From NCBI GenBank assembly GCA_035533075.1, contig DATLUO010000135.1, forward strand, positions 1-64,000: a stretch of DNA of 64,000 bases, in the 5' to 3' direction. This document shows, in pieces, positions 4,754-16,523 of the stretch (its first letter is position 1; every line of letters begins with the position of its first letter). The DNA comes from Pirellulales bacterium. Lineage in GTDB: Bacteria; Planctomycetota; Planctomycetia; Pirellulales; JAICIG01. Made by a program: the position numbers and the translations under genes. Below the pieces are notes generated by a model. It did not search any database. It saw nothing but the letters and a program-made list of their open reading frames with translations, and was not told where the DNA came from.

Positions 4754-4935
4754 TTCATGCGTCCATCCTACGCCGGATACTTTGGGGCGACAACCAAGCC
4801 TGATCGAACTCGGCGGCGGCAAGCGCTTGCGGAAAACAAGGCCCTGCCTCCTCGTGGCCGCGCCCCAAGCGGTTGCCGCCCGCCAACTTGCCGCCGCGTG
4901 CCAGCGCACCAACATTCGTTTAGGCAAGCCAATGT

Positions 4936-6033
4936 CTACGCCTCAATAATCTTGTTGCCGAACAACAGTCGGTCGATCTCCGACAGGCGAAAGGTATCTC
5001 GCTGGTGGATGCTGTCGTTGACCAGGCGCATCAGGGCGTGTGTTTCGAGAAAGCACACGCTGCGAATCGGTTCGGCGGCCATATGTTGGGCAAGGTTCTC
5101 CAGGTCGTGTTGACGAAAGCCGCTGCCGATGACGGCGAAATAGACGCGGTCGATGCCCGACTGTGCCAGCTCGCGGCTGTGTCGCGTGGCGTAGTCGCAG
5201 AATTGTCGGTCGTCGGTGCCCAGCGTGTAGCCGTCGCGGCGGACCTTGGCGTCGAGGATCACGCCGAAGCGGTCGGCCGGGGCCAGCGCCAGACAATCGG
5301 CCACACGTCCGCAACCTTGGCCGAGCTCTCTGACCGTGAAACCCAGGCAGCGAAAGGCATCGGCGCAGCGTGTCTCGAACAAACACGATATCGGCTTCTC
5401 GCCGTCGGCGACTCTGTAGGGAACGGACTCTGTGCCGTTCCGCATGCCCCGCGCCAGGTCGGCCAGGTCGCACAGCCCGGCCGGCAGAAACGGAAACCGC
5501 GTTGCCGCGCTGCAGGATGGCCTTCCCAGGCCGTCACGTGCGATCTCGACGTTCTCCTTGTCAACGACCTCCACTCGTGGCCACAACCTTTGTTGGCGAT
5601 CGGCCACGCGCACGGCGACCTGCAGGAACCGCACGTCGCCCGGATGCTGCCGTACGGTGCGCTCGTGAACGACGGTCACGCGTGGCGGGCGGTCGCTGTC
5701 CGGCACTTGGTCGCGCGACGTGCGTTCGATGGTGACTTCGCGGTTTTCGCGGCTGCGATCGAAGCCGGTCATGGTTTGGGCCCACAGCGATTCCCAGCGC
5801 CGCGTGCAGCGAACGCGCATGCTCTTGGCCAGCGGGTGTTCCGGATGGCCGGAGATCCAGCCTTCGACGTCGCCGGCGATTTGTGCCACGCGTTGCCGCG
5901 TGAGCTTGTAATCGGCGGCGACGACGTCTTGCGTCTCGCCTTCGAGCACATGCCGCTCGTAGATGCGGCAATCGCGGTCGCTGGGCGCATGGGGCCTGCG
6001 CTGGCGTTTCGGTTTGTCGTTTGGTTCGGACAT
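4936..6033 (-). CDS. HTH protein with FokI-like PD-(D/E)XK nuclease domain
   Basis: 365 residues, ATG at 6033. Residues about 20-60 form a sigma-region-4-like helix-turn-helix (EGETQDVVAADYKLTRQRVA); about 65-165 is a charged linker like that of small-terminase or HTH proteins. The C-terminal 145 residues resemble the FokI cleavage domain in order: D246, then FGVILDAKVRRDGYTLGTDD containing D261-A-K263, then beta strand YFAVIGSGF, then FLETHALMRLV. FokI has the matching PD...VIVDTK...LFVSGHF. The D-x-K catalytic pattern is therefore present. A 35-bp dispersed repeat (5407-5441) lies in frame between linker and nuclease and encodes NGTESVPYR. No methyltransferase is adjacent. The fold call comes from reading, not a search. 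Confidence 0.75.
   Translation of the reverse strand: MSEPNDKPKRQRRPHAPSDRDCRIYERHVLEGETQDVVAADYKLTRQRVAQIAGDVEGWISGHPEHPLAKSMRVRCTRRWESLWAQTMTGFDRSRENREVTIERTSRDQVPDSDRPPRVTVVHERTVRQHPGDVRFLQVAVRVADRQQRLWPRVEVVDKENVEIARDGLGRPSCSAATRFPFLPAGLCDLADLARGMRNGTESVPYRVADGEKPISCLFETRCADAFRCLGFTVRELGQGCGRVADCLALAPADRFGVILDAKVRRDGYTLGTDDRQFCDYATRHSRELAQSGIDRVYFAVIGSGFRQHDLENLAQHMAAEPIRSVCFLETHALMRLVNDSIHQRDTFRLSEIDRLLFGNKIIEA
5407..5441 (+). repeat. 35-bp dispersed repeat inside the nuclease gene
   Basis: The sequence containing CTGTAGGGAACGGACTC is shared, 33 of 35 bases, with the complement of 18447-18481 in a non-coding hairpin element. Here it is read in frame by the minus-strand nuclease gene as NGTESVPYR. 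It contains the short palindrome GGAACGG/CCGTTCC. Confidence 0.8.
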
Positions 6034-6116
6034 TTGATGAGGGATGAGGGGGTTGGGGGTTGGGGGTTGGGGTTCGGCCGGTTCGGCCTCAGGGGCGATC
6101 AGTGCGGACCCTGTTT

Positions 6117-6187: not shown

Positions 6188-6740
6188 TGGCCTTGCAGAT
6201 CGCCGGCTCCAAGGAAAACTTTCTCGTTCGTGCAAATTTGCACGAACGAGAAAAAACCGAAGGATCTCATCATCTCGTAGTTCCAGGGTGGTATCTTTTT
6301 TGGGCTCGAGCGGTCACTTCTTTCAGTCTGCGGGCAAAGTGGCTTGGCATGGCTTCGCGACGTTCCAACGGTTTGCGTTCCCAGCAGATTGGCCGGGCGC
6401 CCTTGAGCGCCTCTTTGCCAGGCGCGGCAGCCGCGAGCGCAAATTTGCGCTCACGGGAAAACACGAGGGATTTCGCCATCTTTTACCCCGTTAGCGGGGC
6501 TGCGGCGGGCGTTGGCCCGGTTGGCGTTCCCAGGGCCGACCGCTTCACCCAAGTCTCCGCCGCGAGTGGCTTGGGATGCGTCCACGTCGGCCGGAAGTTG
6601 CTGGACCCATCCCCAGCCTCCCTAGAAAGTGGCTTGGATCACGTTCCTAACGCAGGTCCGCTCGACGGCTCTTGCAAATTTGCAAGGGCCGCAAAACACG
6701 AGGGATTTTGGCATCTCGTAACCCATTGGTCGGGGCTTCT
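6180..6740. repeat. Three diverged repeats, each centred on a perfect palindrome
   Basis: Three units share the core GCAAATTTGC plus a neighbouring ACACGAGGGATTT-type segment followed by a CATCT/CGTA stretch. The palindromes are perfect but differ in their arms: 34 bp at 6220-6253, 18 bp at 6435-6452 and 16 bp at 6671-6686. Centres are 207 and 235 bp apart. Since the arms changed in both halves together, dyad symmetry itself seems to have been kept. On the minus strand each unit also begins with an ATG and 14-17 similar codons, but the frames end differently, so no protein is called. Confidence 0.8.
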
Positions 6741-10709: not shown

Positions 10710-12254
10710 CTACTCAGCGAATTTGGTTTGCTCCAGACGACGACGCACCTGAAGCCGCAGGGCGGCGACTAAGGGCCCAGGCAGCCGCGATGAGGCGAAG
10801 TCGATCGCTTCACGACACCGGTCCCCGGCGCCGGGTGACCCGTTTCGAGCCTCTTCCATTGCAAGGTAGACCTTAGCGATAGCCTCCCGATTTGTATCCC
10901 GAATCGCCCGGGCCAGGCTAATCGCTTCCAAATAAAGAACGCGGCCAAGCTCAGGACTGTCGGCACGAAACGCGATCAGACCCTTTGTTGCGATATATGC
11001 GACTCGTTCGCCGGCGTTAAGCGACGTTACGCGGATGCGACGAACTGTGGCTTCTGCACGTTGATCATCGCCTTTCATCGCCGCCGCAACAGCGTAATTA
11101 TTAAGGAGCGTGTAATCGTTGGGATTACTTCTCAAGCCGACTTCCGCAAATGCTAATGCGCGCTCTAGGTCTCCGGACGCTGTGGTGGCGATGAACGATC
11201 CGTGGATAGCAGGCCGGCTCGAAAAGGGCTGGTCCCGCTGCCACTCTTCAGTCTTTTCAATGGAAGCAACCCAGTCCTCTCGCTCCCAGCTTCTGAAAGC
11301 GGCAGCTTCAGGAGAAAGCTGCAATTGTGGCACGGTCAGGCTGACGACATTCCGGCAGAGCCATGCCGCCTGTGCGACCGCATTTTCCGACGGCTCCCGT
11401 AAGGACGCTTCAACAAGTCGGCGTCCGCTCCGAATCTTCCCCGCCGACAACTCGATCGTTCCAACGGCACTGGCGAGTTCCGAAGCGTGGAAATCTGAAA
11501 AGCGTCCGTTCTCAAGAAGTCTTTTTGCACGCTTAATCAAGCGCGATGTCCGGTTCATCGCATCCGCCGTCGCTATTTCGGCCGCGAGAATCCAGGGGTC
11601 GTTTTGAACTAGTGGTGACGCAACAAGAATCCGATGCGCCCGGTCGCCCTGCTCGTCATGTAGAAAGAAGCGCGCCGCAGACCGAAGGATAAGACGGTTC
11701 TGTGGTGCAAGGGACAGCGCCACCTTCATTGCATGCTCCGCTTTGTCGAGCACGCCGAAGGACGTGTACAGCAAAGCTAAGTTGCACCATTGAATCGGAT
11801 TCCGAGGATAATCGGACAGAAGTTTGCGAACACGATGTATCTGCACAAAAGTCTTGCCGTCAGATTCGGTTAACAGTCGTGGTGAATCGAACGCGCCAAC
11901 CGGCGAACCAAGTCCCGGCAACTCCGCAAGAGCGTTAGCGGTGGGGCTACCGAGATAGATTAACGCGATGCTACGAGCAGCGTCTGGAGCTAACGGATGA
12001 CCTACAACGTAGTTAGCCGCCTCTATCGCGATTTGGTCAAGACCTAGAGTTAACGCTACCGAAACTAGGTCCGAAGCGACGGAAAGAGTGGGCGACTGTT
12101 TCCAATCGTGCAACTGCATTGCGACGGCCTCCTCGGTGAATCGAGGTTGACCGGCCCCGCCAATAGGAATAAGCTCGCCGCGACCAAGAGTGTCGTCGGA
12201 GTGGCGCCATCGGGGCACGACTTGCCGCCGCCTATCTTCGAGAAGAAGTGCCAT
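10710..12254 (-). CDS. TPR protein paired with the kinase
   Basis: 514 residues, rich in tetratricopeptide-type helix pairs, clearest at about 125-190 (NPIQWCNLALLYTSFGVLDK) and about 350-420 (NPNDYTLLNNYAVAAAMKGD). The N-terminal 100 residues are less regular. No catalytic motif. It starts three bases after the kinase stop, so coupling to the kinase is nearly certain. TPR scaffolds commonly collect partners or sense ligands, so a kinase substrate or regulator is the simplest inference. Codon use is more AT-rich than in flanking genes, which suggests acquisition by transfer. Confidence 0.85.
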   Translation of the reverse strand: MALLLEDRRRQVVPRWRHSDDTLGRGELIPIGGAGQPRFTEEAVAMQLHDWKQSPTLSVASDLVSVALTLGLDQIAIEAANYVVGHPLAPDAARSIALIYLGSPTANALAELPGLGSPVGAFDSPRLLTESDGKTFVQIHRVRKLLSDYPRNPIQWCNLALLYTSFGVLDKAEHAMKVALSLAPQNRLILRSAARFFLHDEQGDRAHRILVASPLVQNDPWILAAEIATADAMNRTSRLIKRAKRLLENGRFSDFHASELASAVGTIELSAGKIRSGRRLVEASLREPSENAVAQAAWLCRNVVSLTVPQLQLSPEAAAFRSWEREDWVASIEKTEEWQRDQPFSSRPAIHGSFIATTASGDLERALAFAEVGLRSNPNDYTLLNNYAVAAAMKGDDQRAEATVRRIRVTSLNAGERVAYIATKGLIAFRADSPELGRVLYLEAISLARAIRDTNREAIAKVYLAMEEARNGSPGAGDRCREAIDFASSRLPGPLVAALRLQVRRRLEQTKFAE

Positions 12255-12257
12255 TCG

Positions 12258-13307
12258 TCAGCTTTTGCCGCGTAAATGAAGTTCGGCCTTGAACCGGAGC
12301 AGGTCAAAGGCGGAAACATATCGTTCTAGCGCGTAGCGGTGCGCCCTAAAACTCATGGGGTGCCCACGCAGCGCCGGGTCCGGGTCGCAAAGCTCCGTCA
12401 CGATTCTCGACAGTTTCTCGCGGATCGCTTCCGGAGCATGCGTCGAAAACTCAGCTACAGCTTTCGGAAACGCTGCTTGCAGGTATGGCAATACGTCGGC
12501 GAATGTAACTGCGGGATTGCATGGTTCAAATGTGTTATCAAGATACTTGATAAGTAATGCGTTGATATGCACTCTCGTGAAGAAGAACACCACGAGGCTC
12601 CCAAGCAGATACATATCGTAGCCGAATCGCTTCGTGTTCTCGTCGACGGCCGCCCCGCAAAGAAGCTCAAAAGGAGCATAGCCCATGTCACCTGCAAATT
12701 TAAAATCGTCGTGCGGAGCGCGGAGTCCCTTTGCCCAGGCGCGGCCGAGATCCCCAAGCTTAGATCTGCCTTCCACCGCGAACACGAGCACGTTCGAGGG
12801 CTTCAGGTCCTGATGAGCAATCGCGGCGTGGTGCAATTGCTGTAAGGCCGCGGCAGTACCATGCAGCGTTCGGAGCGCAAATGCTACATCGAATGACTGC
12901 TGTTGATCAAGGTAACTTCGTATGTCGCCATCCGCGCGTTCAAATATCAAGTATTCAACTTTTAGAAACTTCCCTAGTGGACTGCCGGGATCGCCCTCGT
13001 ATGTGCCGTGGTCGATCGCATGTACAACCCGGCTAATCCCGGACGCCTGGCATTTCAAGCAAATGTCCCGCTCAAAAGTGTAGCTCTCGGCCATGTGCTT
13101 CATGACATCGATGGTATCTGAGGCGCTGAACGCCGCAGAATAGTCCATCGCCTTGAGAAAGCCTTCGCGGCCGTCTCGTACATTCCGCACGTGGTAGCCA
13201 GTAGAAAAATGCCCTCCCGTTGCCGTTGGCCGCGGGACCAGCAATGTCTCGACGACCCAGCCGCCCGGAAGCGTCTTGCCCTCAAGTTCCTTCGCTGGGT
13301 AGATCAT
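12258..13307 (-). CDS. Ser/Thr protein kinase-like protein with variant motifs
   Basis: Start ATG 13307, with GGAG just upstream; the frame can be extended six codons to a TTG. About 349 residues. Kinase features: glycine-rich ATGGHFSTGY loop, probable ATP-anchoring Lys in GFLKAMD, catalytic loop HQDLKPSN (Gln instead of the usual Arg), and GDLGRAW in place of DFG, followed by GYAPFE as the APE-like segment. All catalytic residues (Lys, Asp, Asn, Asp) are kept, so activity is plausible. No membrane helix or PASTA/FHA module is attached, unlike typical bacterial kinases. First gene of the seven-gene run. The target is unknown; the TPR protein is the natural candidate. Confidence 0.88.
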   Translation of the reverse strand: MIYPAKELEGKTLPGGWVVETLLVPRPTATGGHFSTGYHVRNVRDGREGFLKAMDYSAAFSASDTIDVMKHMAESYTFERDICLKCQASGISRVVHAIDHGTYEGDPGSPLGKFLKVEYLIFERADGDIRSYLDQQQSFDVAFALRTLHGTAAALQQLHHAAIAHQDLKPSNVLVFAVEGRSKLGDLGRAWAKGLRAPHDDFKFAGDMGYAPFELLCGAAVDENTKRFGYDMYLLGSLVVFFFTRVHINALLIKYLDNTFEPCNPAVTFADVLPYLQAAFPKAVAEFSTHAPEAIREKLSRIVTELCDPDPALRGHPMSFRAHRYALERYVSAFDLLRFKAELHLRGKS

Positions 13308-13716
13308 TATCACTCCGTGACGCAAAAAAAGTCAAACGAACGTTCAGTTCTCCATCGACGGCTCGAACGCGAAGCCTGCTGCACGACTCCAGCGAAAGCC
13401 ATTTTAGCGAATTCGGGCGCTACGATCAAATGGGTCCGCCGCCCCGCCGCCCCTGCGGCCCTTTGCGCCGGATTTCCGCTTCGCCCGAGCGGATGCCGTC
13501 GTATGGTAGGCCAGCACCAGTTCGCGCACTCGGTCGCGCCCCCTTAAACGCCCCAAGAACTTGAAAGAGAATGCCGTAAGTACTCGCCGTTACGCCAAAC
13601 CGTCGCGCCTCGCGGGTCCGACCTCTTCACCCGATAGCAAGGCAGGCACTTGGCCTGCCTAAGAATTATAGCGGCTGGCGCGCGAGGGTAACAGTCGACA
13701 ACGGGAATTGACACGC
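13308..13716. other. Intergenic region between kinase operon and restriction gene
   Basis: 409 bp with no supported gene. It must hold the promoter of the minus-strand kinase operon, but no clear -35/-10 pair was seen. The only clear structure is the hairpin at 13640-13660. Confidence 0.5.
13640..13660 (-). terminator. Stem-loop downstream of the restriction-methylation gene
   Basis: AGGCAGGC and GCCTGCCT form an 8-bp stem with a 5-base loop, 57 bp beyond the stop of the methyltransferase gene and close to an AT stretch. It could end that transcript and insulate the kinase operon. It lacks a strong T run, so the call is weak. Confidence 0.35.
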
Positions 13717-16523
13717 TCACTTCCGCGCGCCGTTATGCGAGAGGTTCAGTTCGAGAAGGCGAGCCAAGATTTCATCGTCCGTTAGATCCGCTGGCCAGCC
13801 GTAGGCGGCAAAGACGGCGGCGTCGAGGCGGCAATGGGCGTGGTCGAGCCAGGCGGGACGCTGGTTGTAAAGTATCGTCAACGTCCGCTTGGCAAGCTGC
13901 TTCGCACACTCCTCGTCCTTCGCCGCCAGCCGAGGACAGCGGATCGTGCCAATCCCGCGGCTGTCGGCGTTCTCCACGTACCGCGTCCAAGGCCCGTTGA
14001 GCGACCCTGGAAATTCCAATACCTCCTCGCGCGTCCACATCGGCGGGTTCAGCCAGTTCGAGCGAAGCTGGTCGAGTTCCTTGGCCGCGTCGGCAATCGC
14101 CGCGCACTGCGCGTCAGTGGGCTGCGGGAAAACGAACGTCTCGAAGCACGCGGTCGGGTTGTAGGTCGCGTCGTTGCCCACGCCATGCCAGCCGCAGGTG
14201 GCCAGCGTCCAAAGCTCGTGAACACGTGAATGGAGCACGCCGAAGTGGAAATCGTCGTCGAAGGCGATTGCGATGACCTTCGAGTCGGGGATAACGACGG
14301 TGTCTAGCCAAACAAAGAGTCGATGCTTTGCGACACGCGCGGTGGCGACGTAGCGCCGCTGGGCGCTGACCGCGCGCCTAAAACCCGGCCTCGCCTCCGC
14401 GTGGATCCACCACTTTTCGCGATATGTTTGTCTGCCGTTTGTCGCCCGCGCCGGCCGAACATGCTCCGCGAGGTACTCGTAGGGCGACTCGTACCGGACC
14501 GCGTTTTCTGCGGCCATGCCAGGGCCAAAGTCAATGATCCACTTTCCGGAACAGCGTCGGACCAAATCGCTGCCATTCCGCCAGGGCCGAAGCACGTCGC
14601 TATTGGCCCGCCCATCAGGGTTCGGCTGGCGCAGCATTGCCTCCGCTTGCTCGGCGCCGATGTCGAAATCACCGACCTTCGTTGTGCCCATGAAACACAG
14701 GCCGGCATTCGGGTGCAGCCGCTGCGCCCGCGTGACGTCCAGGCCAACGCTTAGGTCCGGGTTGATCGTGACGACGTTCCGGCCGTCAAGTTTGGGTTGA
14801 TCCGCGGTGTCGCTCGGTCCAAAGCCGATCATCGAGATTCTGGTTTCGGCCCCATCGAGGATCCAGTCGCGGTCGGAAATCGCCCAGAAAATACGCGCCG
14901 TTTCCCCAATCCTCTCCAATACGCGTCGGCTGCCTGCCTGCTTGATCGCCGTCGTGGCCAGTAGACCGACGCGACGCGCTCGGCCTTCACCGACCATTCG
15001 TCTCGCTTTCTCAAACCAATACGAGCAAAGATCGGCAGTCGCCGGTAGACGATCACCGTACATCGCCCAAAGCGGTTCGACGTATTCCGCGCCCAGTGCC
15101 GAGCGCATCTGCTTGTTGCCCAAGAATGGTGGATTGCCGACGATGTAATCCGCCGACGGCCAGACCGGTTCCTTGGGATGTTCGGGTTCGCTAACGTCAA
15201 TGATCGCATCCTTGGGGTGGATGCTTTCGATCGGGTCGAGCACGGGGTTGCGGGGCGCGGGGAAGCCGTTGTCGTGCTTCCATTGCAAAAAGCCGATCCA
15301 GATTACCACCTGCGCCAACTGCTGGGCGAAGGCGTTGATCTCGATGCCGTGCAGTTGCGTCGGGCGAACTTGCGGCAACAAGCTCGTGCCGTGCGCCGCG
15401 GCGTAGGCGATCACTTCCTTCTCCAGGTCGAGCAACAGGTTGATTGCCACATAAAGAAAATTGCCCGAACCACAGGCCGGGTCGAGAATCGTGATGTGGG
15501 CCAGTCGCTCCACAAAGTCGCGCAGCAGCTTGTCGTGGTCCCTGCGGGGCTTCGACTCTTTTGCTGCGGTCCGCCGGCCCCCGCCCGTGCTCTTGTCCTT
15601 CTCCAAAAGCTTGTCCCAAAGGCCATCGCACTTGGCTTTCACGTCGGACCATTCGCGGCGCAAGGGGGCCATGACCACCGGCTCGAGCAGCGTGAGAATG
15701 TCGGCGCGGCTGGTGTAGTGGGCGCCGATCCGCGAACGCTTGGCCGGGTCGAGCGTGCGCTCGAAAAGCGTGCCGAAGATCGAAGGCTCGACGCTGGCCC
15801 AGTCGTGCTCGTTGACCAGGATCAGCTCGTCGATCTCCCGCGGGCGCAGCTCGATCGCGTCGGCGTCGGCGAACAGGCCGCCGTTGAAGTGCAGAATGCG
15901 GTCGGCGCCGAAGTAGCCGCCCGTGGCCATCGCCTGAAACAGGCCCCGCAAATGCTCGGCCAGCCGCGGCGGCTCGTCTTTGGCGCTGAGCATGATCTTT
16001 TTGAAGAGCTTGTTGTCGCGCGTGCCCAACAGGCCGATGTCTTCGGCAAACATGCAGAACATCAGCTTCATCAGGAAGTGGGCGGCCGTTTGGGCGGGCA
16101 CGCCCCGCAGCCGCATGCCGTCGGCCAACAGGCCGAACCGCTCCGCCGCCTGCTCGGTGATGCCGCGGGCCGTTTCGCCCGGCTTGAGCCGCTCGGGCTC
16201 GATGAACAGCTTGCGGAGCACGTCGAGATGGGCCGGCTCGGCGAGCTGGTCGAGGTCGAAGGCGTAGACTTTTTTGGCCGTGCCCGTGAAGTTGGTGTGA
16301 ATCTCCAGCCAAAATGGCCGCGGAACCAGACATCGGCCCAGCCCTTGCCGCCGCCGGTTTTGCTGACGCCGCGCTCAAAGGTGTAGAAAGCGCCCTCGGG
16401 GTCGGCCGCCGCCGGCTTGGGCTGGTCCAGCACGTCGCACAGGTCGAGAAAGTGCTGCTGGCAGGCGCTCCGCTCAGAGAGGTTCGCCCGTTTCCACTTG
16501 GCGACGAATTCTTGCGGTGTCAT
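13717..16523 (-). pseudogene. MmeI-like (type IIL) restriction-methylation enzyme, nuclease motif deleted and frameshifted
   Basis: ATG 16523 opens MTPQEFVAKWKRANLSERSA and runs normally to GWADVWFRGHFGW; a frameshift then occurs near 16303 and the normal protein resumes in another frame as EIHTNFTGTAKKVYAFDLDQ. In this family the D-X9-EXK nuclease motif reads ADVW..GHFGW-EYK; the Asp side is present but EYK and roughly 35 following residues are gone. The rest (834 codons from GTG 16221) keeps methyltransferase motif I (DPACGSGNF) and motif IV (NPPF), plus a C-terminal target-recognition region. The full product cannot be made without reinitiation; a methyltransferase-only protein from an internal start is possible. 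Starts 6 bp after the oxidoreductase stop. Confidence 0.88.

Follow-up and report, generated by a model that had tools for sequence, protein, structure and literature searches.

The gene at positions 4936-6033 of the window (the whole stretch of 64,000 nucleotides analysed here) encodes a solitary FokI-type endonuclease that appears catalytically competent and, judged from sequence, has about an even chance of behaving as a free-standing, homing-like selfish element. The ORF was confirmed on the minus strand, with an ATG start and 365 codons for amino acids. An earlier note had described a catalytic domain like that of FokI, carried by an HTH protein with no methyltransferase next to its gene, and family profiles, invariant residues and fold comparison all bore this out. 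Its reading as a lone restriction-type protein was right about this arrangement but overlooked that the gene is multicopy and fragmenting, that it has relatives with homing repeats and that it is linked with dispersed repeats. The features of the locus are as follows:

4936-6033, minus strand: HTH plus FokI-type nuclease gene, 365 aa (ORF listing, family alignment, fold, selection)
4939-5400, minus strand: C-terminal FokI-type PD-(D/E)XK domain, about residues 212-365, with E220, D246, D261 and K263 invariant (alignment, Pfam, fold)
5583-5979, minus strand: helical N-terminal region for DNA binding, spanning roughly residues 19-150 and akin to phage HTH and terminase small subunit proteins (Foldseek; weak Pfam matches of paralogs)
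6046-6080, minus strand: heptamer repeats of the CCCCAAC type immediately 5' of the start codon (sequence); other copies have CCCTGAA heptamers in their place

The nuclease domain

Four residues, E220, D246, D261 and K263, were invariant in 19 of 19 aligned family sequences. The family profile aligned with FokI across PD...VIVDTK..GGYNL and placed D246, D261 and K263 on the FokI catalytic residues, which we take to be D450, D467 and K469. With a profile built from distant members, GR..D(246)...VILD(261)AK(263)..GY.L fell on PDGAIY...YGVIVDTKAYSGGYNL of FokI (1fok/2fok), at an E value of only 0.08 by sequence. The window protein alone matched no Pfam family at E<10 and is thus below the Pfam cut-off for PF09254, and neither a PADLOC nor an NCBIfam family was matched. 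Among the 19 family members PF09254 (FokI_cleav_dom) was matched in nine (best 2e-7), with one distant relative above its curated cut-off, and Mrr_cat in ten (best 0.0016). Searched against PDB sequences, the family by itself yielded no more than weak matches.

An AlphaFold2 model of the window protein reached a pLDDT of 77.8, with low confidence at residues 239-245, just before D246, and showed the element order alpha-beta-beta-beta-alpha-beta at residues 215-330. When this predicted structure was compared with the PDB by Foldseek, ranks 1 to 3 were all FokI (E 3e-6 to 7e-6, prob 1.00), and the match spanned 205 columns. The earlier note had held that D246 and D261-A-K263 follow the FokI pattern PD...VIVDTK, and had proposed a profile comparison and a structure prediction as checks. 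The claim stood in the family alignment and in the invariance among 19 sequences, and both checks agreed with it, the profile of distant members aligning at the catalytic motif and the model being best matched by FokI.

By residues, family profiles and predicted fold, the C-terminal domain is of the FokI PD-(D/E)XK type. It resembles the FokI cleavage domain (PF09254; PDB 1fok, 2fok) in the Foldseek fold, in the D...DxK spacing with its GY.L motif and in its C-terminal place, whereas the DNA-binding part appears to be a different one, no methyltransferase adjoins and the gene is multicopy. To Mrr-type restriction endonucleases (PF04471) there is the weak profile similarity given above, but the fold search favours FokI and the architecture of the window protein differs.

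The N-terminal region and the relatives

Foldseek against a viral fold library matched the helical N-terminal half, with modest scores, to phage HTH and terminase small subunit proteins; the N-termini of paralogs gave weak Pfam matches to Mor (0.0013) and Sigma70_r4. A scan of bacterial and archaeal genomes gathered relatives from Acidobacteriota, Nitrospirota, Omnitrophota, one planctomycete and one contig labelled Actinobacteria. Most of them are without the HTH part, and the homing-endonuclease-associated repeat PF18780 precedes the same nuclease domain; in one relative the repeat scored 2.5e-5, one bit under the curated cut-off. PF18780 was present in relatives only and absent from the window protein, which counts against the homing-like reading. 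The HNH_repeat-nuclease fusions found in Acidobacteriota, Nitrospirota, Omnitrophota and a planctomycete each stand alone among ordinary, unrelated genes, one of them (L063) just before what is presumably carB, named from its sequence. A third type of N-terminus was found in two relatives, G271 and G093, one of which adjoins a type I methyltransferase gene. Methyltransferase remnants suspected by eye beside a Silvibacterium relative (L058) were unsupported by Pfam. No relative of the nuclease was found on viral contigs; a viral origin was rejected on this ground, and the same result weighs against the homing-like reading.

With free-standing homing endonuclease genes (T4/ICP1-type HEGs; PMC10448857) the family has in common solitary nuclease ORFs, exchangeable DNA-binding parts, PF18780 in relatives and remnants that can flank gene blocks (C49); it differs in its FokI-type domain, where those genes have LAGLIDADG, GIY-YIG or HNH, and homing is here a candidate activity. 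The Rpn/YhgA-like recombination-promoting nucleases (PF04754; PMC5350276), thought to promote gene acquisition, are likewise PD-(D/E)XK proteins with several paralogs per genome. The present family has an N-terminal HTH and a FokI-type rather than an Rpn-type domain, and PF04754 (Rpn/transposase_31) matched neither the window protein, nor its paralogs, nor the family. Winged-helix fusion type IV nucleases (PMC11037411) also combine a DNA-binding domain with a nuclease, PD-(D/E)XK in some, and usually have no methyltransferase; the window family differs from them in copy number and dispersal, and for it the reading of modified DNA is a candidate property at most.

Copies, remnants and selection

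In its own genome (G000; 8.54 Mb in 296 contigs) the nuclease gene had 23 matching places, and DNA comparison found two further remnants, C11 and the 3' end of C170. Seven copies carry a complete nuclease domain, and about 17 are remnants, many of them internally deleted. Complete ORFs are present in four (C135, which is the window, C187, C170 and C254); C147, C38 and C114 have the complete nuclease domain but run off contig ends. The remaining copies are fragments, of which C68, C288 and C112 keep both gene ends and have lost the middle, and others keep one end. Many contigs of this genome end in or beside repeats or gene copies (C70, C75, C86, C117, C124, C128 and C170), and the true copy number is therefore probably higher than counted. 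Outside it, a genome of the same family (G001) had four places, one of 56 other relatives had a single place, and among 297 other genomes sampled from the class a distant homologue occurred in three, once in each. G000 and G001 were the only members of the order found with the HTH-type gene. Lacking a partner methyltransferase and present as some two dozen copies and remnants, the gene behaves less like that of a classical restriction enzyme than like a selfish gene that is spreading.

Between intact copies the dN/dS of the nuclease domain was 0.12-0.22 (comparisons leaving out rows with C237 of G001), a range indicative of purifying selection on intact copies. The earlier suggestion that the protein may be inactive is, given this and the invariant residues, unlikely for the window copy. 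Synonymous divergence was lower in the C-terminal than in the N-terminal part both for C170 and C114 (0.55 vs 1.14) and for C170 and C254 (0.51 vs 1.09), which suggests, from few pairs, conversion between copies.

The closest copy outside the own genome (L054) has 88% amino-acid identity to the window protein. DNA homology between the two is limited to 6130-4825 (82% identity), a 1.3-kb unit of the gene and a 112-bp repeat whose end is the 3' limit of the homology, and the neighbours of L054 differ from those of the window gene. L054 lies on a contig labelled Actinobacteria (NCBD01000076.1), yet adjoins a planctomycete-type gene, so that the contig may be wrongly binned. No clean orthologous pair of an empty and an occupied allele was found among the copies, a point against the homing-like reading.

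C140 and C118 have about 3.4 kb in common, a restriction gene included, and upstream sequence is common to the group A copies (related to C170, C140 and C118). Such cases would fit an ordinary multicopy family that serves host repair or regulation, was multiplied by segmental duplication and is passively decaying. We regard this as very improbable, as L054 and the window have only the gene unit in common, the distribution is very sparse (3 of 297 class genomes) and the catalytic residues are strongly conserved. Segmental duplication could nevertheless have contributed both to the copy number and to the association with repeats, which tells against the homing-like reading.

Dispersed repeats around the gene

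Two kinds of repeat flank the window gene:

6221-6289, minus strand: M1 hairpin unit, CTCGTTCGT-GCAAATTTGC-ACGAACGAG (model R1 match; fold z -4.55)
6428-6495, minus strand: M1 hairpin unit whose self-complementary stem has another sequence (model R1 match; fold z -3.41)
6663-6730, minus strand: M1 hairpin unit whose self-complementary stem has a third sequence (model R1 match; fold z -3.27)
4823-4933, minus strand: M2 repeat of about 112 bp, beginning 2-3 nt past the stop codon on the gene's strand (model R2 match)

M1 is a 69-nt unit, present three times upstream of the window gene and combining the conserved tag AAATCCCTCG.GTTTT with a hairpin in which GCAAATTTGC is invariant while the stems vary yet stay self-complementary. 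In 18 units both sides changed in 7 of 10 stem pairs, and the covariation score was 0.576, while shuffled alignments scored 0.199 and slid ones no more than 0.198. Neither the window locus nor six other copies came near the threshold of any Rfam family, and a known RNA was rejected as the identity of the hairpins. The M1 model found about 75 units in 50 clusters across the own genome. M2, which ends TTGTTTTYNCAAGC, was found in 39 copies in G000 and 36 in G001 and was absent from six other relatives (two of eight tested). In linkage tests that treat copies as independent, and whose P values overstate the case because some copies arose by shared duplication, 12 M1 clusters lay within 2 kb of a nuclease copy (0.6 expected) and 11 of the 39 M2 copies within 500 bp of one, all on the gene's strand (0.15 expected). 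Ten of these eleven are upstream of the gene; that of the window is downstream.

Elsewhere M2 precedes ordinary genes, and M1-M2 pairs without a nuclease gene exist. That M2 is a general repeat in both genomes weakened the idea of a specific dependence between M2 and the nuclease. The two uncatalogued dispersed repeats are a feature of the lineage linked with the nuclease, not proven parts of a nuclease element. After M2 in L075-L079, L105, L114, L118 and L132 another hairpin with an apparently covarying stem, CAACTG.C.GAATC.G.CAGTTGGCCAATGGTGGGG, was seen by eye.

M1 was present in 2 of 147 genomes of the order, G000 and G001 only; these two, also the only ones with M2 among the eight tested, are the genomes with the HTH-type nuclease. 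This restriction, the close linkage in the own genome and the covarying M1 stem are what a repeat-based mobile system would show, in which the nuclease is the enzyme that recognises M1 or M2 and mobilises the non-coding arrays, as RAYT does for REP. We consider this unlikely: both genomes belong to one family and hence to one lineage, most M1 and M2 copies have no neighbouring nuclease, M2 stands before ordinary genes, and a FokI-type nuclease by itself cannot join ends. A broader proposal, that nuclease, M1 and M2 form one mobile system of the lineage, with the nuclease acting on the repeats so as to spread itself and shuffle neighbouring defence genes, is doubtful. In G001 no M1 hairpin lies on any contig bearing a nuclease copy, which speaks against the homing-like reading.

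The methyltransferase question and the defence-gene neighbourhood

No methyltransferase adjoins the window gene in the ORFs or in the Pfam and PADLOC matches of the window. The nearest one is:

13717-16221, minus strand: type IIG/DrmMI-like DNA methyltransferase (Pfam MmeI_Mtase 2.9e-26; PADLOC REase_MTase_IIG 4e-249)

It lies 7.7 kb from the nuclease gene, is not conserved with other copies and is not judged a partner of the nuclease. The earlier statement that no methyltransferase is nearby thus holds for the adjacent genes, but not for this one. The survey of gene neighbours that had been suggested pointed the same way, with no methyltransferase conserved beside the copies and the homing-repeat relatives solitary; classical restriction-modification was rejected as a label for the family.

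The surroundings are rich in defence genes. PADLOC assigned a candidate defence pair, PDC-M71A/B, to 10713-13325 of the window, and BREX genes lie at 67-70 kb of its contig. Near hairpins and copies 184 PADLOC families were matched in 107 proteins, among them BREX, DISARM, type IIG and a Cas1 from a Cas9 locus; the figure for 118 control proteins was 49, in one unreplicated comparison with control windows hand-picked from hairpin-free stretches. A defence role for the nuclease may therefore be considered, and it is a possibility that we hold tentatively: a stand-alone restriction nuclease, type IV-like or tightly controlled, would cut foreign or modified DNA by way of its HTH region, and its copies would build up in defence islands that duplicate and turn over. 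The clustering of defence genes by copies and hairpins and the presence of PDC-M71A/B and the IIG methyltransferase in the window agree with this, and the position of the copies among defence genes is explained equally well by it as by homing-like behaviour. As in type IV restriction, no methyltransferase adjoins the window gene, and stand-alone winged-helix nuclease fusions without one are among the known type IV enzymes (PMC11037411). It would, however, be odd to meet a restriction enzyme as seven diverged paralogs with a complete nuclease domain besides about 17 remnants in one genome; the window protein matched no PADLOC family, and the HNH_repeat relatives sit among ordinary genes.

A possible homing-like cycle and its meaning

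If the gene is a homing-like element, the HTH region would bind a specific site, possibly in or beside the M2 or M1 repeats, and two nuclease domains would pair, as in FokI, and cut both strands. The break would then be repaired from a copy that carries the gene, with the dispersed repeats as homology, and the gene would spread in this way; faulty repair or later decay would leave deleted copies. This account is favoured by the FokI fold, the invariant residues, purifying selection, some twenty loci in intact, deleted or truncated form, the compact unit of gene and M2 in differing surroundings, relatives with homing-endonuclease-associated repeats and the one-strand linkage of M2 with the nuclease.

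The nuclease fold itself is already known, and the FokI cleavage domain is a standard module of engineered nucleases. Nature appears to have fused this blade with an HTH region here and with homing-endonuclease repeats in the relatives, in both cases with no methyltransferase for protection. Such HTH or homing-repeat fusions to a FokI-type nuclease in solitary, multiplying genes were not found in the open-licence literature searched. Should the homing-like reading be true, it would add a FokI class to the mobile nucleases and supply modular nucleases ready for testing. How defence islands are rearranged in these large planctomycete genomes may become clearer as well.

Remnants beside other loci

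On C49 (L042) a Cas9-Cas1 locus lies between two nuclease remnants that share one orientation. The remnants of C140 and C118 stand opposite type IIG restriction genes (L041 and L048, respectively), which have their N-terminal two thirds in common (87%) and the remaining third unaligned, as if the specificity part had been swapped. Near a further remnant, an Acido-Lenti-1 RNA (RF01687) was observed at 4634-4678 of L065.
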